From Solirubrobacteraceae bacterium (GTDB lineage Bacteria; Actinomycetota; Thermoleophilia; Solirubrobacterales; Solirubrobacteraceae), in NCBI GenBank assembly GCA_025935735.1, contig JAICUS010000313.1:1-7098 (forward strand): a stretch of DNA of 7,098 nt. The letters run 5' to 3'. The notes under the pieces were generated by a model. It saw only the letters and a list, made by a program, of their open reading frames with translations. It made no database searches and had not been told where the DNA came from. Numbering within the stretch: position 1 is the stretch's first letter; every line of letters starts with the position of its first letter. Positions 172 to 6,943 of this stretch are shown here, piece after piece. The position numbers and the translations under genes were made by a program.

Positions 172-241
172 GGATGTGAACGGGCGCGAAATCCGCCCCG
201 CCCCGAACCCACAGCCCGCGAAAGAGCGGCAGAATGACCAG

Positions 242-937
242 GTGACGCACACCCGGGGCACGATCCTCATCGTCGACGACGAGCCGACCATCGGCGAGGT
301 CACGTCGCGCTACCTGCAGCGCGACGGCTACGCCACGCAGGTCGCGCTCGACGGCCCCAGCGCGCTGCGCGCCTACGACGCGCACGAGCCCGACCTGGTG
401 ATCCTCGACCTGATGCTGCCCGGCCTCGACGGGCTCGAGGTGATGCGGCGGCTGCGCGAGCGCACGCGCCGCCGCGCCGCGATCATCGTGCTCACCGCCA
501 AGGACGAGCCGAACGACCGGATCGTCGGGCTGCGCCTCGGCGCCGACGACTACGTGGTCAAACCGTTCTCGCCCGACGAGCTCGTGGCCCGCGTCGACGC
601 CGTGCTGCGCCGGGTCGACACGGTGCGGGACGACCCCGAGCCGCTGACCTTCGCGGGCCTGGACATCGACGTGGCCGGCCGGCGCGTGCTGCTCGACGGC
701 GCCGAGGCGCCGCTGACCCAGCGCGAGTTCGACCTGCTCGCGTTCCTGGCGTCCCATCCCGGCCGCGCGTTCAGCCGCGAGGAGCTGATGGACCACGTCT
801 GGCAGCACCCCTTCTACTCCGACACCGCGACGGTCACGGTGCACGTCCGGCGGCTGCGCGCCAAGATCGAGCGCGACCCGGAGCGCCCCCGCTACGTCGA
901 GACGGTGTGGGGAGTGGGCTACCGCTTCGTCCCGTGA
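242..937 (+). CDS. OmpR/PhoB-type response regulator
   Basis: This is the DNA-binding half of a two-component system, a cytoplasmic regulator phosphorylated by the kinase encoded directly downstream. With the GTG at 242 it has 231 residues, normal for the family. The receiver domain (about 6-120) shows the acidic pair Asp12-Asp13, the phosphoacceptor Asp56 in LVILDLMLP, Thr85 in VLTAKDE and Lys107 in VVKPF. The C-terminal winged helix (about 134-231) has the OmpR signature LTQREFDLLAFLA, the recognition-helix stretch TVTVHVRRLRAKIE and the closing VWGVGYRF. An in-frame GTG at 176 would add 22 proline-rich residues not typical of receivers, so 242 is preferred, although the ribosome site before it (a GAAAGAG at 220-226) is weak and rather far. 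The stop overlaps the kinase start. Target genes cannot be read from the sequence; the adjacent molybdoenzyme genes are an inference. Confidence 0.93.
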   Translation: MTHTRGTILIVDDEPTIGEVTSRYLQRDGYATQVALDGPSALRAYDAHEPDLVILDLMLPGLDGLEVMRRLRERTRRRAAIIVLTAKDEPNDRIVGLRLGADDYVVKPFSPDELVARVDAVLRRVDTVRDDPEPLTFAGLDIDVAGRRVLLDGAEAPLTQREFDLLAFLASHPGRAFSREELMDHVWQHPFYSDTATVTVHVRRLRAKIERDPERPRYVETVWGVGYRFVP

Positions 938-2100
938 CGCGCTCGGTGCTCACCGCCGTCGCGCTGGCGGTGGCCGTGGCGCTGTGCCTGCTGCCGCAGG
1001 GGCTGCACGGGACGCTCGTGACCGCGGCGATCCTCGTGCCGCTCGGCGCCGCGATGGCCGCGGCGGCGCACGTGCTGGCCCGCCGCCCCGGATCGCTGCG
1101 CCGCCAGGCGCTCGCGCTCGCCGCGCTGTCGGCGGGCGGCCTGGCCATCGGCGTGGCCCTGTTCGTCTCGCAGATGTTCCTCACCTCGCACGACTCGCTG
1201 CTCACCGTGCTGCTGGCCGCCTACATGGCGCTGGCCGTGGGCGGCGCCGCGTGGACGCTCGGCCGGCGCGTGCTGGCCGAGTTGCACGCCGTGCGCTCGA
1301 CGCTGACCGCCGTGGCCGAGGGCCGGCGCGACGTGCGCACGGGGATCGCCGGCAGCGGCGAGATCCCCGCGCTGGCCGCCGACGTCGACGCGATGGTCGC
1401 CCGGCTCGACGGCGAGGAGCGCGCCCGCCGCACGCTGCTGGCCGGGCTCTCGCACGACCTGCGCACACCCCTGACCACGCTCCAGCTGCTGGCCCGGGCG
1501 ATCGACGACGACCTGGTCGACGCGGCCACCCGGCGCGAGTACGCCGCGCGCATCGCCACCCACGTGCGCACGCTGGAGGGGCTGATCGCGAACCTGTTCG
1601 AGGCCTCGCGGCTCGAGCGCGGCGAGGTCAGCTGGAAGCTCGAGCGGGTCAACGACCTCAACCTGCTGCTCGACGAGGCGGTCGACGCGATGCGCCCGGC
1701 GGCGGTCGCGGCGGACGTGGAGGTGCAGACCGAGCTGCACGCCACCGCGCCGGTGTCCGTCGACCCCGAGGCGCTGATGCGGGTGATCTTCAACCTCCTC
1801 CAGAACGCGCTGCGCCACACGCCGGCCGGCGGGGTGGTGACCGTGCGTGCGCTCGACGGCCCGTCCGGGATCGAGATCGAGGTGGTCGACAGCGGCGAGG
1901 GCATCGCGCCGGACGATCGCCCGCACGTGTTCGAGCCGTTCTACCGCGGCGGGACGGACGCGGCCCGGCCGGCCACCGGCTCGGGGCTCGGGCTGGCGAT
2001 CTCGCGGGCGATCGTGGAGGCCCACGGCGGGCGCATCTGGCTCGGCGACAGCCCGCAGGGCACCGCCGTGCGGCTGCGGCTCCCCGGCGCCCTCGCGTAG
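934..2100 (+). CDS. HAMP-containing sensor histidine kinase with four membrane helices
   Basis: This membrane kinase is the probable partner of the preceding response regulator. The start is set at the GTG at 934, which forms a GTGA overlap with the regulator's stop and gives 388 residues. Four hydrophobic helices are visible at about 2-21, 28-49, 59-83 and 89-110, joined by very short loops, so there is no sizeable outside sensor domain. A HAMP-like linker (about 110-165) follows, then the dimerisation domain with the phospho-accepting His174 in LSHDLRTPL. The ATPase domain has an N box (FNLLQNALRHTP, Asn291), a G1 box (DSGEG, 319-323), an F box (FEPFYRGG) and a G2 box (GSGLGLA, 349-355). 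All catalytic motifs are intact. The short loops suggest it senses something within or at the membrane rather than a soluble ligand, which is inference. Confidence 0.93.
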   Translation: MTRSVLTAVALAVAVALCLLPQGLHGTLVTAAILVPLGAAMAAAAHVLARRPGSLRRQALALAALSAGGLAIGVALFVSQMFLTSHDSLLTVLLAAYMALAVGGAAWTLGRRVLAELHAVRSTLTAVAEGRRDVRTGIAGSGEIPALAADVDAMVARLDGEERARRTLLAGLSHDLRTPLTTLQLLARAIDDDLVDAATRREYAARIATHVRTLEGLIANLFEASRLERGEVSWKLERVNDLNLLLDEAVDAMRPAAVAADVEVQTELHATAPVSVDPEALMRVIFNLLQNALRHTPAGGVVTVRALDGPSGIEIEVVDSGEGIAPDDRPHVFEPFYRGGTDAARPATGSGLGLAISRAIVEAHGGRIWLGDSPQGTAVRLRLPGALA

Positions 2101-2127
2101 TTTCGCGATCCGCAAGCCGCCCGGACC

Positions 2128-2133
2128 TACGGT
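2128..2133 (+). promoter_or_regulatory. Possible -10 element of a near-leaderless promoter for the molybdoenzyme gene
   Basis: The 40-base gap between the kinase stop and the ATG at 2141 contains TACGGT, matching the actinobacterial TANNNT -10 pattern. Transcription would start about 7-8 bases downstream, at 2140-2141, on or next to the start codon. No strong Shine-Dalgarno sequence precedes the ATG, only GGTGG at 2131-2135, which fits a leaderless message. The -35 region is poor (a TTCGCG-like stretch around 2102-2107, with a spacer of about 20). Read-through from the kinase gene is an equally good explanation of expression. Confidence 0.35.
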
Positions 2134-2140
2134 GGCCTGC

Positions 2141-3376
2141 ATGGCCCTCGCCGCCCCTCCCGGGCCGTTCCGCCCCGGCTTCTGGCGCTCCCCGCTGCGC
2201 GGCCCGTGGCTGACCGCCGCGCTGGGGGCGATCCTGCTCGTGCTGCTGACCGTCGTCGCGGGGACCGGGTTCTACTCGCACCTGGCCTACCGGCCCGACC
2301 TGCCCGGCAACGCGATCGTCGACCCACGCGTGATCCCGTTCGCGCTGGACCTGCCCACGCGCCCGTCGTGGCTCTACGCGCTCACCCAGGGCGCCCACGT
2401 CACGCTCGGGTTCGTCGCGGTGCCGGTGGTGGCGGCGAAGCTGTGGTCGGTCATCCCGCGGCTGTTCGCCTGGCCGCCGTTCGCCTCGCCCGCGCAGGCG
2501 CTCGAGCGGCTGGGCATCGCGCTGCTGGTGGGCAGCGGCCTGTTCGAGCTCGCCACCGGCGTGGTCAACGCGCAGGTCTACTACCCCTTCCACTTCTCGT
2601 TCGTCATCGCCCACTACTACGGCGCCTGGCTGTTCACCGGCGCGCTGGTCCTGCACGTCGCGGTCAAGCTGCCGGTGATGGGCCGGGCGTTCCGCGCGCG
2701 CGGCGTGGTCGCGCCGCTGCGCGAGAGCCTGGAGCGCACCGCGCCCGAGCCGCCGGACGCCGACGGGCTCGCGCCGCTGCACCCCGCGGCGCCGACCATC
2801 AGCCGCCGCGGGCTGTTCGGCCTGGTCGCCGGGAGCTCCGGACTGCTCGCGCTGCTGACCGTGGGACAGGCGGCCGGCGGGCCGCTGCGGCCGCTCGCGC
2901 TGCTGGCGCCGCGCCGGGACGGATTCCCGGTCAACAAGACCGCGCGCACCGCCGGCATCACGCCCGAGTTGGTGGCCGGCTGGCGGCTGGACATCAGCGG
3001 GCCGCGGCCGGTCTCGCTGACGCGCGCGCAGCTCCAGGCGCTACCGCAGCGCACGGCGACGCTGCCGATCGCCTGCGTGGAGGGCTGGTCGACCACGCAG
3101 ACCTGGAGCGGCGTGCCGCTGGCCGCGCTCGCCCGCCTGGCCGGTGCGCGGGAAGGATCCGCGCTGCGTGCCGTCTCGCTGCAGCCGCACGGCGCCCTGC
3201 GCCACGCCACGCTCGCGCCCGACCAGGTGGCCGACCCGCGCTCGCTGCTCGCGCTCGCCGTCAACGGCCGCGCCCTGTCGCTCGACCACGGCTATCCGGC
3301 GCGGATCATCGTCCCGGCGCTGCCGGGCGTGCACAACACCAAGTGGGTGGCGCGGCTGGAGGTGCTCGACGCATGA
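2141..3376 (+). CDS. Membrane-anchored molybdopterin-dependent oxidoreductase with N-terminal cytochrome b-like domain
   Basis: The 411-residue protein fuses a helical membrane domain to a sulfite-oxidase-fold molybdenum cofactor domain. Four helices lie at about 22-44, 82-104, 122-142 and 153-177; histidines 86, 158 and 172 in helices 2 and 4 are candidate b-heme ligands. A fifth helix (225-245) is directly preceded by a twin-arginine motif, SRRGLF (221-226). The remaining segment (about 260-411) has FPVNKTAR, then IACVEGWS with Cys312 as the expected molybdenum-ligating cysteine, and ends in HNTKWVARLEV. Positive-inside topology puts the catalytic domain outside the cytoplasm. The layout resembles a fused MsrP/MsrQ-like pair (catalytic molybdoprotein plus heme membrane subunit), but the substrate (sulfite, oxidised methionine or other) cannot be determined. 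The ATG at 2141 is the first sensible start after the kinase stop. Its stop overlaps the next gene by 4 bases. Confidence 0.88.
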   Translation: MALAAPPGPFRPGFWRSPLRGPWLTAALGAILLVLLTVVAGTGFYSHLAYRPDLPGNAIVDPRVIPFALDLPTRPSWLYALTQGAHVTLGFVAVPVVAAKLWSVIPRLFAWPPFASPAQALERLGIALLVGSGLFELATGVVNAQVYYPFHFSFVIAHYYGAWLFTGALVLHVAVKLPVMGRAFRARGVVAPLRESLERTAPEPPDADGLAPLHPAAPTISRRGLFGLVAGSSGLLALLTVGQAAGGPLRPLALLAPRRDGFPVNKTARTAGITPELVAGWRLDISGPRPVSLTRAQLQALPQRTATLPIACVEGWSTTQTWSGVPLAALARLAGAREGSALRAVSLQPHGALRHATLAPDQVADPRSLLALAVNGRALSLDHGYPARIIVPALPGVHNTKWVARLEVLDA

Positions 3377-3822
3377 TCGCCCGCCGCTACGGCGCCTCGC
3401 CCTGGCACCTGGCCGGGCACGCGGCCTACCTTGGTCTCGCCGCCTACGTGCTCGCGCGGATGCTCGACCGCCCGGCCGCGGCGAACATCGTCGCCTGGCT
3501 GGTCGCCGCCGTCGTCCTGCACGACCTCGTCGCGCTGCCGCTCTACACGCTGCTCGACCGGCTGCTCTGGCGCGCCGCGCCGCGGCGGCTGGCCGCGGCG
3601 CTGCGCACCGCGGCCGTGCTCGCCGGCTTCACGTTCCTGGTCTTCTTCCCGCCGATCCTCGGCCGCAACGACCGCACGTTCGCCCGGGTGGCCGGGCACC
3701 CGCCGTCCGGCTACGCCGCCCGCTGGATCGCCGTCGCGGTCGCGGTCACGCTGCTGTCGCTCGCCGCGGCGCGCGTCAGCGCACGGCGGCGCGGGCGAAC
3801 GCGCGGATCGCCACGGCGATGA
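3373..3822 (+). CDS. Small membrane protein of unknown function coupled to the molybdoenzyme
   Basis: I do not recognise a named family. The ATG at 3373 forms an ATGA overlap with the molybdoenzyme stop, implying translational coupling and a related role. The 149 residues contain hydrophobic segments at about 13-31, 38-61, 77-96 and 117-134. Histidines sit at 12, 16, 50 (in VVLHDLVALPLY) and 109, with a conserved-looking FFPPILGRND at 91-100. The histidine in helix 2 followed by Asp51 could suggest a cofactor site, but this is speculative. It may be an accessory or assembly subunit of the oxidoreductase. Residues 135-149 are an arginine-rich, low-complexity tail, and they are exactly the part that overlaps the end of the convergent exporter permease gene (47 bases). 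The tail is therefore probably not a functional domain. Confidence 0.75.
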   Translation: MIARRYGASPWHLAGHAAYLGLAAYVLARMLDRPAAANIVAWLVAAVVLHDLVALPLYTLLDRLLWRAAPRRLAAALRTAAVLAGFTFLVFFPPILGRNDRTFARVAGHPPSGYAARWIAVAVAVTLLSLAAARVSARRRGRTRGSPRR

Positions 3823-4636
3823 ACGCGACGGCGAACAGCGCGACCACCGCGAGGCTCAGCCACGCCTGGCCGGTCGCGCTGCCGGCGCCCCAGATGTCGT
3901 GCAGGCCGCTGCCCTGCGGGTCGGTCAGGCCGTAGCGCATCAGCGCCATCGCGTGGGTCAGCGGGAGGAACTTCGCGAACGTCGTCAGCGCGCCGGGCAG
4001 CGCGCCGATCGGGAACAGCGCGCCGGCGAAGAACCACGGCAGGATGGCGATCGCCGGCGTGACGCCGATGTACTCCTCCTGCTGGTGGATGCGGGCCGCG
4101 AGCGCCTCCGCGATCCCGTACATGAGCACGACGAACAGCACGGCCGCGGCGGCGAACCAGGCTATGCCGGCGGCGCTGACGTGGAAGTCCGCGCCGCGCA
4201 GCGCGGCGGCGGCGATCACCACCACGACCTGCAGCGCGCACAGGCCGAGCACGACGAGCAGGTTCCCGGCCACGAGCAGCGCGCGCGGGACGGGCGCGGC
4301 CAGCAGCTCGCGCTGCGCGCCGCTCTCGCGGTCGACGATCACGCCCAGCCCGGCGAACGTGGTGGCCAGCGGGACGAGCAGCCCGACCGTGCCCACCGCG
4401 ACGAACGCCGTGTAGTCGATCGCCGAGTGCAGCCCGCCGAGCGCCGTCTTCAGCGCCGGCGCGATGACCAGCGCGAACAGGATCGGGGTGAGCATCGGCA
4501 CCGCGATCTGGCGCGGGTTGTGGGCGGTGAGCGCGGCGCGCCGGGCGGCGTGGGGGCCCAGCGCGCGCCCGAGCCCGGCGCGCCGGGGAGCGGCGGCGGT
4601 GGAGGGGAGGCGTCCCTCGGTCAGGGTGGCGGCCAT
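3776..4636 (-). CDS. ABC-2 type exporter permease (DrrB-like)
   Basis: This 286-residue integral membrane subunit pairs with the ATPase encoded just upstream. The start at 4636 (ATG) is supported by AAAGGA at 4645-4650, 8 bases before it. After a cytoplasmic alanine- and arginine-rich N-terminus (1-40), six hydrophobic segments can be seen at about 44-62, 75-97, 117-142, 148-173, 192-211 and 256-280. The motif VIVDRESGAQRELLAAPVPRAL (99-120), with the invariant-looking Glu-Arg-Glu-Leu core, is typical of drug and polysaccharide ABC-2 permeases that couple to DrrA-type ATPases. FLPLTHAMALMRYGL (233-247) is another family signature near the end. The cargo is unknown; small hydrophobic drugs, lipids or glycans are all possible. 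Twenty-nine bases separate it from the ATPase stop, consistent with one operon. Confidence 0.92.
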   Translation of the reverse strand: MAATLTEGRLPSTAAAPRRAGLGRALGPHAARRAALTAHNPRQIAVPMLTPILFALVIAPALKTALGGLHSAIDYTAFVAVGTVGLLVPLATTFAGLGVIVDRESGAQRELLAAPVPRALLVAGNLLVVLGLCALQVVVVIAAAALRGADFHVSAAGIAWFAAAAVLFVVLMYGIAEALAARIHQQEEYIGVTPAIAILPWFFAGALFPIGALPGALTTFAKFLPLTHAMALMRYGLTDPQGSGLHDIWGAGSATGQAWLSLAVVALFAVAFIAVAIRAFARAAVR

Positions 4637-4665: not shown

Positions 4666-5610
4666 TCAGGCGGCGGCGGGGAGGCCGGCGCCGGTGAGGC
4701 GCAGGTAGACGTCGTCGAGCGCCGGCCGGCGGCTGTTGACCGCGACGACGGCCAATCCGGCCCGGTCGAGCGCGGCGATGGCGTCGCCCGCGGTGGCGTC
4801 GCGCAGCGGGATCGTCACGGTCGAGCCGACGACCAGCGCCTCGCCGGCGGCGAGCCCGCGGGCGCCCAGCGCGGCCAGCGCAACGGACACCTCGCCGTCG
4901 ATGCGCAGCTCGAGCAGCTCGCCGCCCAGCCCGGCCAGCAGCGCGGCCGGCGTGTCGAGCGCGACGATCTCGCCGGCGTGGACGATGGCCACGCGGTCGC
5001 ACAGCCGCTCGGCCTCCTCGAGGTAGTGCGTGGTGAGCACGATCGTCATGCCGTCGCGGGCGCGCAGCCCGGCGATCACGTCGAGCAGCTCGAGCCGGAT
5101 CCGCGGGTCCAGGCCGACGGTCGGCTCGTCCAGGAACAGCACGCGCGGCCGGGACACCAGCGCGCGGGCGATCTCCAGCCGCCGCCGCTGGCCGCCGCTG
5201 TAGCCGCCGACCGGCCGGTCGAGGATCTCCTCGACGCCGAGCGCGCCGGCGAGCTCGCCGATCGCCGCGCCGTCCACGCCCCACAGGCGGGCGTGCAGCT
5301 CGAGGTTGGCGCGGCCGGAGAGGCCGCGGTCGACCACCGGCTCCTGGAAGACCACGCTGCTGACCGCCCGCGCCTGCAGCGGGCGGCGGACGACGTCGTA
5401 GCCGGCCAGCGCGGCGCCGCCGCTCGTGGGCGCGATGGTCGTCGTGAGCATGCCGATCGTGGTCGACTTGCCGGCGCCGTTGGGCCCGAGCAGGCCGAAC
5501 ACCTCGCCCGGGGCGACGTCGAAGTCGAGGTCCTTGACCGCCTCGACGCCTCCGGGATACGTCTTCGTGAGCCGGCGGACCGCGACCGCCGGCACGTCGT
5601 GCGCTGCCAT
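4666..5610 (-). CDS. ABC exporter ATP-binding protein (DrrA-like)
   Basis: This is the cytoplasmic ATPase that powers the downstream permease. It has 314 residues, the normal length for DrrA-type ATPases with a C-terminal extension. Visible motifs are the A-loop tyrosine Tyr18 (KTYPGG), Walker A GPNGAGKST (42-50), Q-loop Gln89, the signature YSGGQ (137-141), Walker B VLFLDEP (157-163), D-loop GLDP and the H-loop His185 in LTTHYLEEAE. The C-terminal segment ending RPALDDVYLRLTG (about 305-317 region, close to the end) is characteristic of the drug-export branch. The start at 5610 is backed by GAGGAG at 5618-5623, 7 bases upstream of the ATG. The frame stays open much further upstream on the minus strand, but that part is antisense to the sigma gene. 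It is divergent from the sigma factor and may share its promoter region. Confidence 0.95.
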   Translation of the reverse strand: MAAHDVPAVAVRRLTKTYPGGVEAVKDLDFDVAPGEVFGLLGPNGAGKSTTIGMLTTTIAPTSGGAALAGYDVVRRPLQARAVSSVVFQEPVVDRGLSGRANLELHARLWGVDGAAIGELAGALGVEEILDRPVGGYSGGQRRRLEIARALVSRPRVLFLDEPTVGLDPRIRLELLDVIAGLRARDGMTIVLTTHYLEEAERLCDRVAIVHAGEIVALDTPAALLAGLGGELLELRIDGEVSVALAALGARGLAAGEALVVGSTVTIPLRDATAGDAIAALDRAGLAVVAVNSRRPALDDVYLRLTGAGLPAAA

Positions 5611-5642
5611 TGTCGATCTCCTCGTGGGGGGTTCACGCCTTT

Positions 5643-5669
5643 GTCGAAATCCCGCGGGGAGATGTGACC
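5643..5669 (-). promoter_or_regulatory. Tentative mirrored ECF41-type promoter toward the ABC exporter
   Basis: On the minus strand GGTCACA (complement of 5663-5669) is followed after 16 bases by CGAC (complement of 5643-5646). The -35 is identical to that of the sigma promoter and the spacing is the same, but the -10 differs from the expected CGTC at one base. A start around 5635-5638 would leave a 5' leader of roughly 25-28 bases including the GAGGAG ribosome site of the ATPase gene. The -10 mismatch is a real weakness, as this element is usually strict. Confidence 0.4.
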
Positions 5670-5678
5670 GGGTCACAT
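5662..5678. repeat. Perfect 17-base palindrome between the divergent sigma and exporter genes
   Basis: ATGTGACC, one central G, then GGTCACAT: eight-base arms that match perfectly. Each arm contains the GGTCACA that serves as a -35 element on its strand. The same symmetry would suit a dimeric repressor such as a TetR protein. Further small inverted repeats flank it: CCCGCGGG at 5651-5658 and TCCGG/CCGGA at 5679-5693 around a five-base loop. Confidence 0.85.
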
Positions 5679-5697
5679 TCCGGTCGCGCCGGACGTC
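5671..5697 (+). promoter_or_regulatory. ECF41-type promoter of the sigma factor gene
   Basis: GGTCACA at 5671-5677 and CGTC at 5694-5697 are separated by exactly 16 bases. As I recall the published ECF41 consensus is TGTCACA-N16-CGTC, so only the first -35 base differs. The match lies directly in front of an ECF41-type sigma gene, as expected for autoregulation. A transcription start about 6-9 bases past CGTC falls at 5703-5706, so the message would be leaderless or nearly so. No well-spaced Shine-Dalgarno sequence is present (AGGGG ends only 2 bases before the ATG). Confidence 0.75.
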
Positions 5698-5706
5698 ATA
5701 GGGGCG

Positions 5707-6633
5707 ATGGACGAGCGAGATCTCCTGGCGGCCGAGTTCGAGCGCCAGCGGGCGCGGCTGCGGGCCGTGGCCTACCGCATGCTGGGCTCGGTCAGCGACG
5801 CCGACGACGCCGTGCAGGAGGCCTGGCTGCGCCTCAGCCGCTCCGACGCGGACGCGATCGCCAACCTGGGCGGCTGGCTGACCACGGTGGTGGCCCGGGT
5901 GTCGCTGGACATGCTGCGGGCGCGCCGCGCGCGCCACGAGGACTACGTCGGCAGCCGGCTGCCCGAGCCGCTGGTCAGCGAGCGGCTCGACGGCCAGGAC
6001 CCGGAGCAGCAGGCGCTGCTGGCCGACTCGCTCGGGCTGGCGCTGCTCGTCGTGCTCGACTCGCTCGCGCCGCCGGAGCGGCTCGCGTTCGTCCTGCACG
6101 ACATGTTCGCCGTGCCGTTCGGCGAGATCGCCGAGATCGCCGGCACGACCCCGGCGGCGGCCCGCCAGCTCGCCAGCCGCGCCCGCCGGCGGGTGCGCGG
6201 GTCGGCGCCCGCCGACGACTCGGACCTCACCGAGCAGCGCGCCGTGGTCGACGCCTTCCTGGCCGCGTCGCGCGACGGCGACTTCGACCGCCTGGTGGCG
6301 ATCCTGCACCCCGACGTGGTCTTCCGGGTCGACGCCGGCGGGCGCGGGCCGCTCGCCCGCGAGCCGATCGCCGGCGCCGAGGCGGTCGCGCGCCAGGTGC
6401 TCGCCCGCGGCCGGCCGTTCGCCCGCTTCGCCCGCCACGCGGTGGTCAACGGCGGCGCGGGCGTGATCGTCGCGCCGCACGGGCGGCCGGTGGCGATCGT
6501 GGCGATGGCCATCGCCCGGGGGCGCGTGACGGCCATCGACCTGATCGCCGATCCGGAGAAGCTGCGCGCCGCTACGCCGGCCAGCGCTCCGGCACCAGCA
6601 CCACCCGGAAGCCGTCCGGATCCGCGAACGTGA
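5707..6633 (+). CDS. ECF41-type RNA polymerase sigma factor (SigJ-like) with C-terminal SnoaL/NTF2-like domain
   Basis: This extracytoplasmic-function sigma factor redirects RNA polymerase to GTCACA/CGTC-type promoters. Of 308 residues, region 2 covers about 10-80 (RAVAYRMLGSVSDADDAVQEAW, then GGWLTTVVARVSLDMLRARR) and region 4 about 112-164 (LDSLAPPERLAFVLHDMF and GTTPAAARQLASRARRRV). A SnoaL/NTF2-like domain follows at about 172-286; in this group it replaces a separate anti-sigma factor and modulates activity. Group hallmarks are recognisable but altered: the linker has YVGSRLPEPLV (about 80-90) where I expect YVGPWLPEPLV, the loop reads DAGGRG (209-214) instead of DGGGK, and the end reads DPEKL (282-286) instead of NPDKL. 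Residues 289-308 are an alanine- and proline-rich tail lying entirely within the overlap with the VOC gene. The usual carboxymuconolactone decarboxylase or oxidoreductase neighbours are absent here. Confidence 0.93.
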   Translation: MDERDLLAAEFERQRARLRAVAYRMLGSVSDADDAVQEAWLRLSRSDADAIANLGGWLTTVVARVSLDMLRARRARHEDYVGSRLPEPLVSERLDGQDPEQQALLADSLGLALLVVLDSLAPPERLAFVLHDMFAVPFGEIAEIAGTTPAAARQLASRARRRVRGSAPADDSDLTEQRAVVDAFLAASRDGDFDRLVAILHPDVVFRVDAGGRGPLAREPIAGAEAVARQVLARGRPFARFARHAVVNGGAGVIVAPHGRPVAIVAMAIARGRVTAIDLIADPEKLRAATPASAPAPAPPGSRPDPRT

Positions 6634-6943
6634 GGCCGTGCGCGGCCCAGTACGGGTTGGCCGGCGCGACCGGGTCCGCGCCCAGCCGGGCGGCCGCCGC
6701 ATCGACCGCCGCCCGGTCGCCCAGGTAGAGCACGAGCAGGGACTCCGGGTGCGGCTCGGGCGCGGCGTGGGCGCCGCCGGAGGTCAACTCGAGGTGCGCA
6801 CCGGTGCCGGGGACCTCGAGGAACACGCCGTCGTAGCCGGCGTGGTCGCGGAAGCCGCCGAGCTCCACGAGCCCGAGCCCGTCGCGATAGAAGGCGACGA
6901 CCTCGGCGAGGCGCTCGGTGTGGCGGGCGACGCGCAGCTGCAC
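6572..6943 (-). CDS. VOC-superfamily (glyoxalase/bleomycin-resistance fold) protein
   Basis: The 123-residue protein is a small single-module VOC enzyme or binding protein made of two beta-alpha-beta-beta-beta units. The N-terminus MQLRVARHTERLAEVVAFYRDGLGL is a typical first unit, with His8 at the usual first metal-ligand position; Glu52 in HLELT is the probable second. The second unit includes LLVLYLGD (69-76) and NPYWAAHGLTFADPDGFRVVLVPE (96-119), a standard VOC ending. The start is a GTG at 6943, only 4 bases after the stop of the TetR-type gene, so the two are almost certainly cotranscribed. The substrate cannot be told; resistance, dioxygenase and lyase roles all occur in the family. 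Its last 62 bases overlap the end of the sigma gene on the other strand. Confidence 0.9.
   Translation of the reverse strand: MQLRVARHTERLAEVVAFYRDGLGLVELGGFRDHAGYDGVFLEVPGTGAHLELTSGGAHAAPEPHPESLLVLYLGDRAAVDAAAARLGADPVAPANPYWAAHGLTFADPDGFRVVLVPERWPA

Follow-up and report, generated by a model that had tools for sequence, protein, structure and literature searches.

The window analyzed here (the whole stretch of DNA, 7,098 bases) contains a two-gene ABC-2 exporter on the minus strand and an ECF41/SigJ-type sigma factor gene on the plus strand, and the 96-nt gap between them (5611–5706) holds a two-promoter module that is real and conserved, centered in this copy on a palindrome that is incidental. 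The reading that we consider probable is that two ECF41-type promoters stand back to back in the gap and that the ECF41 factor would recognize both of them, driving its own gene through the rightward one (autoregulation) and, as output, the operon of the DrrAB-like exporter through the leftward one, whose strength is probably reduced in this copy.

An ECF41-type sigma factor gene beside a DrrAB-like exporter

The exporter consists of a DrrA-like ATPase of 314 aa (Pfam ABC_tran; 4666–5610, minus strand) and a DrrB-like permease of 286 aa (Pfam ABC2_membrane; 3776–4636, minus strand). Both fall below the curated cut-offs of the corresponding models (285.1 bits versus 312.45 for the ATPase on the DrrA model TIGR01188, and 58.5 bits versus 223.05 for the permease on the DrrB model TIGR01247); the pair is DrrAB-like and does not belong to the DrrA and DrrB families themselves. 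To the left of the exporter, four consecutive plus-strand genes lie within 176–3822; according to a Pfam scan they encode a response regulator, a histidine kinase, a molybdopterin-oxidoreductase-domain protein, and a 149-aa product that matches no Pfam family. To its right, the sigma factor gene (5707–6633, plus strand) encodes 308 aa with a SnoaL-like C-terminal part and is convergent with a YycE-like/glyoxalase gene (6572–6943, minus strand), into which the last approximately 16 residues of the sigma reading frame run (6572–6633). A fragment of a TetR-type gene lies at the window end.

The sigma factor matches Sigma70_r2 (44.8 bits) and Sigma70_r4_2 (36.5 bits), both above the Pfam cut-off, and carries the fused SnoaL-like C-terminal domain that characterizes ECF41 factors, with SnoaL_2 recognized at residues 181–256 (E = 1e-5; 26.5 bits, slightly below the cut-off of 27). 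It exceeds the cut-off of the NCBIfam SigJ model NF007214 (293.4 versus 271, with the model spanning residues 7–289) and misses that of the SigX4 model TIGR02957 (261.7 versus 323.25). Where ECF41 factors have the motifs YVGPWLPEP in the linker and NPDKL at the C terminus (PMC7730460), the translation reads YVGSRLPEP (7 of 9 positions identical) and DPEKL (3 of 5, with the other two conservative). The closest protein relative, P0001, is 93% identical, likewise 308 aa long, and encoded on a metagenome contig. As expected for ECF41, no anti-sigma family was matched among the eight window proteins scanned with Pfam. No COE gene adjoins the sigma gene, its neighbors being the DrrAB-like and YycE-like/glyoxalase genes; a COE neighbor is a frequent feature of ECF41 genes rather than a necessary one, and was missing beside approximately 30% of them in the 2012 set (PMC3426412).

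Promoter-like sequences in the 96-nt gap

The palindrome ATGTGACC-G-GGTCACAT occupies 5662–5678, with its arms (5662–5669 and 5671–5678) placed around G5670, and direct reading of the sequence confirms the original prediction that this perfect inverted repeat provides an identical GGTCACA on each strand. On the plus strand, GGTCACA (5671–5677) is followed after 16 nt by CGTC (5694–5697), giving an ECF41-type promoter for the sigma gene (5671–5697). On the minus strand, GGTCACA (5669–5663) is followed after 16 nt, just as had been predicted, by CGAC (5646–5643), one base off CGTC, giving an ECF41-like promoter for the exporter (5643–5669). The ECF41 promoter pattern TGTCACA-n16-CGTC (PMC3426412) is thus present in the window, one base off the consensus on the sigma side and two off on the exporter side. 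The -35 arms had been thought to overlap; the boxes are in fact adjacent, 1 nt apart, and lie between -10 boxes that are 47 nt from each other. The ATG of the sigma gene (5707) comes only 9 nt after its CGTC, so that its mRNA would probably be leaderless, and the exporter ATG (5610) lies 32 nt past its CGAC, with GAGGAG upstream of it; transcription is predicted to begin at approximately 5704–5707 on the plus strand and approximately 5636 on the minus strand. Another -10 for the minus-strand promoter was ruled out, there being no CGTC 15 to 17 nt from the minus-strand -35. We also observed an imperfect direct repeat (13 of 16 positions) between the region of the exporter start codon (5606–5621) and 5637–5652; the CGAC box sits inside the second copy, and a local duplication may have overwritten the exporter -10.

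To judge these elements against chance, we generated 20,000 dinucleotide-preserving shuffles of the gap (5611–5706). A palindrome with 8-nt arms and a loop of at most 6 nt arose in 318 of them (1.6%), so that the palindrome by itself is weak evidence. Under a scoring matrix trained on 43 promoters from related loci, the minus-strand site was equaled in 0 of the 20,000 shuffles, the plus-strand site in 90, and both together in 0; across both strands of the whole window, the two sites are also the top two (18.7 and 9.9, with the next at 3.4). We give almost no credence to the idea that the minus-strand promoter likeness is a product of chance, which its imperfect -10 and short -35 core might suggest, in view of this shuffle result and of the intact exporter promoter present in all 23 of the relatives described below. 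The full-matrix score of the minus-strand site is flattered, because the matrix contains spacer columns that are shared by descent; on the 11 core columns, the plus-strand site scores 19.6, inside the range of the 43 promoters (15.3–21.9), and the minus-strand site scores 11.2, under all of them.

Conservation of both promoters beside the two genes

Searches with the window's DrrB-like permease protein gave matches in 13 of 232 genomes from one order (that of genome G004) and in 28 of 399 genomes drawn from a larger group, the class of genome G002, which we take to be Thermoleophilia. Seven genomes were common to both searches, leaving 34 distinct exporter loci. An ECF41 gene lies divergent to the exporter operon in 23 of these: at 21 loci it is directly divergent to drrAB, with the promoters nose to nose at 19 (one of which, G395, is split over two contigs) and back to back at 2 (G004 and G151), and at G378 and G445 it is divergent, again back to back, to an apparent MMPL-drrA-drrB operon. 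At eight loci the DNA ahead of drrA is readable and no sigma gene lies next to it (G125, G130, G131, G132, G162, G379, G424, and G412), and three are truncated (G386, G422, and G423).

At all 23 loci with a sigma gene, the promoters facing both ways are intact matches to the ECF41 pattern NGTCAC-N17-CGTC and have 16-nt spacers. The exporter-side -10 is CGTC at every one of them and CGAC at none (20 of the 23 were read with a pattern that also allows CGAC, and G378, G445, and G395 with CGTC only). The comparison supports the proposal of a DrrAB-type exporter under an ECF41 factor. The sequence elements, their conservation, and their synteny are direct observations, and because the relatives keep both promoters beside the two genes, the exporter most likely belongs to the regulon of the sigma factor.

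The same loci bear on the condition of the exporter arm in the window. A T occupies the third place of the -10 in both ECF41 boxes mapped by 5'RACE (CGTC and TGTT; PMC3426412), so that CGAC is expected to be weak, and since CGAC is absent from all 23 of these loci, the arm may even be dead. Conceivably, only the sigma arm is alive, with the CGAC arm a decaying relic and the exporter transcribed from another promoter; the T kept at that place in 23 of 23 relatives and the core score of the minus-strand site, lower than that of every matrix promoter, both fit such a history. However, the site retains its -35, its 16-nt spacing, and a spacer resembling those of the relatives, and on the full matrix it beats every other site in the window bar the sigma promoter, and we regard a relic as unlikely, though worth keeping in mind. 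We favor two functional promoters, of which the exporter arm of the window copy is probably weakened: with A in place of the T of CGTC, it would probably fire less strongly than its counterparts in the relatives.

Only one of the eight loci without an adjacent sigma gene (G412) has an exporter-side CGTC motif, versus 23 of 23 with one (Fisher p = 3e-6, not corrected for relatedness). Of the seven motif-free loci, five had their neighbor scanned (G130 and G132 fell outside the scan), and all five have a TetR gene there. These motif counts and TetR neighbors suggest that the exporter swaps regulators and that the ECF41 promoter accompanies the ECF41 regulator. The DrrAB-like exporters beside TetR share with the window a related ATPase–permease pair, but have a TetR regulator and no ECF41 motif that we could find. 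At two of them (G379 and G424; L204 and L205), the divergent TetR gene is followed by one for a protein with HD domains and a LuxR-type GerE domain. At G412 (L202, 804–830), DrrAB-like genes have an ECF41-type promoter without a neighboring sigma gene, and a mirrored GACG lies 9 nt after the -10 of this exporter promoter. The arrangement looks like the remnant of a nose-to-nose pair, and the exporter may be the target of a factor encoded at some other place in the genome.

Variable layout and the status of the palindrome

Relative to the sigma start, nose-to-nose loci have the sigma promoter at approximately -63 to -37 and the exporter promoter at approximately -28 to -2, which places the exporter -35 directly before the sigma start codon. 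Among 42 distinct nose-to-nose sequences from all fetched loci, the gap between the opposed -10 boxes is 8 nt in 34, 9 nt in 4, 11 nt in 2, 12 nt in 1, and 44 nt in 1. The boxes of the two arms are mirrored and the spacers are not (spacer identity 5.7 of 16 within a locus versus 7.2 between loci). For the back-to-back form, the gaps between -35 boxes are 1 (the window), 6, 6, 9, 9, 10, 10, 10, 17, and 100 nt, a count that leaves out L044 (gap 57, one -10 being CGAC) and L117/G412 (gap 101, one -35 being AGTGACA); the gap is 10 nt in G004 and 100 nt in G151, the two closest back-to-back relatives, and 9 and 17 nt in the two MMPL-DrrAB loci. In a tree of 42 sigma sequences, of whose 39 inner branches 14 are well supported, the window's sigma factor clusters first with that of G004 (100/92) and next with that of G151 (98/93), both from DrrAB loci that share the back-to-back layout. 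The remaining back-to-back loci fall elsewhere in the tree, which suggests at least two reversals of the layout.

A shared palindromic -35 acting as a functional unit, as originally envisaged, is not supported by this comparison: the 1-nt gap between -35 boxes is found only in the window and varies in the relatives, and 19 of the 23 loci have the opposite, nose-to-nose arrangement. The palindrome is a by-product of -35 boxes lying 1 nt apart. Of the features that the original prediction proposed to look for in relatives, the 16-base spacings are kept and the palindrome is not. The adverse outcome named in the original prediction, a conserved palindrome with an unconserved minus-strand -10, appears in reverse, in that the exporter -10 is conserved, the palindrome is not, and the CGAC of the window is the exception. 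The palindrome might instead be an operator for a dimeric repressor or activator, its promoter likeness being secondary; its perfect 8-nt arms, the TetR-type fragment at the window end, and the TetR genes adjoining the sigma-less exporter relatives are in keeping with this. Yet half-site distance and orientation vary among the relatives, with the -35/-10 pairs and 16-nt spacers staying constant; the promoters are conserved there without the palindrome; and such palindromes arise in shuffled sequence (318 of 20,000). Because the half-sites and layout shift while the promoter boxes stay, we rate an operator as very improbable.

Recurrence of exporters as ECF41 partners

Exporters of the DrrAB, MFS, and MMPL kinds recur as partners of ECF41 genes. 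Of the 399 genomes, 8 contain a back-to-back site and 25 a nose-to-nose site, never more than one of either (G227 has one of each), and a reversed-pattern control gave 0 in both cases. At 25 of these 33 sites, the gene on the other side is an exporter: DrrAB at 16 nose-to-nose sites, MFS at 5 more (G056, G083, G090, G116, and G227), and, at 4 back-to-back sites, DrrAB (G004), MMPL-DrrAB (G378 and G445), and MFS (G409). The non-exporter sites comprise an epimerase in G226 and 7 of other or unassigned kinds. The MFS gene of G227 has an additional ECF41 motif of its own, approximately 260 nt from the promoter pair. At five loci, a codirectional MFS gene ends directly ahead of the sigma gene (the four that were scanned, L136, L141, L144, and L148, were all MFS).

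Outside the class, the best 80 sigma loci include 19 with both motifs, 26 with the sigma-side motif only (including some at a large upstream distance that may be chance matches), 1 with only the other, and 34 with neither, and carboxymuconolactone decarboxylases and one MFS gene are among the partners. The upstream gene runs in the same direction as the sigma gene at no fewer than 3 of the 19 two-motif loci (at least L015, AAA_33; L018, Usp; and L080, CMD), so that the mirrored half can be retained where there is no divergent target, and it may have another use there, or none; over these best 80 loci the direction of upstream genes is only suggestive, as gene calls were rough (the window's own DrrA-like gene was missed) and some upstream genes (e.g., at L006 and L007) were not assignable. 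At L015 (Streptomyces rimosus), the nose-to-nose pair, which lies 62 nt ahead of the sigma gene, takes the form of a perfect inverted repeat of 27 nt with a loop of 8 nt, although the upstream gene is codirectional with the sigma gene.

More tentatively, and with doubt prevailing, these loci could be class-wide detoxification modules in which an ECF41 factor and an exporter (DrrAB, MFS, or MMPL-DrrAB) would use a compact two-way promoter with mutually exclusive directions, such that autoregulation would be limited by output and the closeness of the promoters would be kept while the layout flips between nose to nose (-10s mostly exactly 8 nt apart) and back to back.

Relation to known systems and implications

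In the group-defining paper (Wecke et al. 2012, PMC3426412), the confirmed ECF41 targets are decarboxylases, oxidoreductases, and epimerases only; COE genes are concluded to be the only detectable targets; and the ECF41 signal is given as unknown. Across its 55 <ECF< >COE> loci, the motif TGTCACA-n16-CGTC stands before the ECF gene in 36 and before the COE gene in 41. The window is like these loci in having an ECF41 gene divergent to its putative target, with the motif often before both, and unlike them in that the target would be an exporter rather than a decarboxylase, oxidoreductase, or epimerase. The claim that the pairing departs from the usual ECF41 neighborhood, as that paper describes it, is supported. 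Its Table 5 does predict hits at some transporter genes of B. licheniformis, and the three predicted promoters tested in that study were inactive. The string "palindrom" is absent from its text, and the sections consulted do not describe the distance and orientation of the two promoters. Literature listings on ECF41/SigJ, on ECF factors with transporters, and on bidirectional promoters show no exporter as an ECF41 target and no such layout; the context lists of the 2021 ECF reclassification may hold exporters. SigG1 of Streptomyces tsukubaensis (PMC7730460) is, like the window's sigma factor, an ECF factor with a SnoaL_2 extension, but belongs to another group (ECF56) and has an antagonist, RsfG; a SigG1 ChIP-seq peak lies near an MFS gene that Table 1 of that paper marks as not sigG1-dependent.

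The -35 boxes of the window lie so close, at 1 nt, that probably one polymerase at a time could bind, and, judging from the distances involved, polymerases would collide at binding in both layouts. Competition between opposed polymerases is plausible. The bidirectional promoters of E. coli (Warman et al., PMC12825309) are comparable in that divergent mRNAs issue from a short stretch on which opposed polymerases exclude each other, as they probably would here. They share or interlock a sigma-70 -10, whereas the window has two separate ECF -10 boxes outside adjacent -35s and no common -10 from which divergent transcripts could start; the closer parallel is the nose-to-nose arrangement seen in relatives. 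In five of the E. coli promoters, basal activity is too low for competition, and divergent RNA is repressed once one direction is strongly activated (PMC12825309). Competition at the ECF41 promoters should likewise matter only in the induced state.

A conserved exporter partner would point to small toxic molecules as a possible ECF41 cue and supplies a measurable output, and the near-fixed 8-nt gap between opposed -10 boxes offers a natural system for asking whether polymerases at opposed ECF promoters regulate each other.
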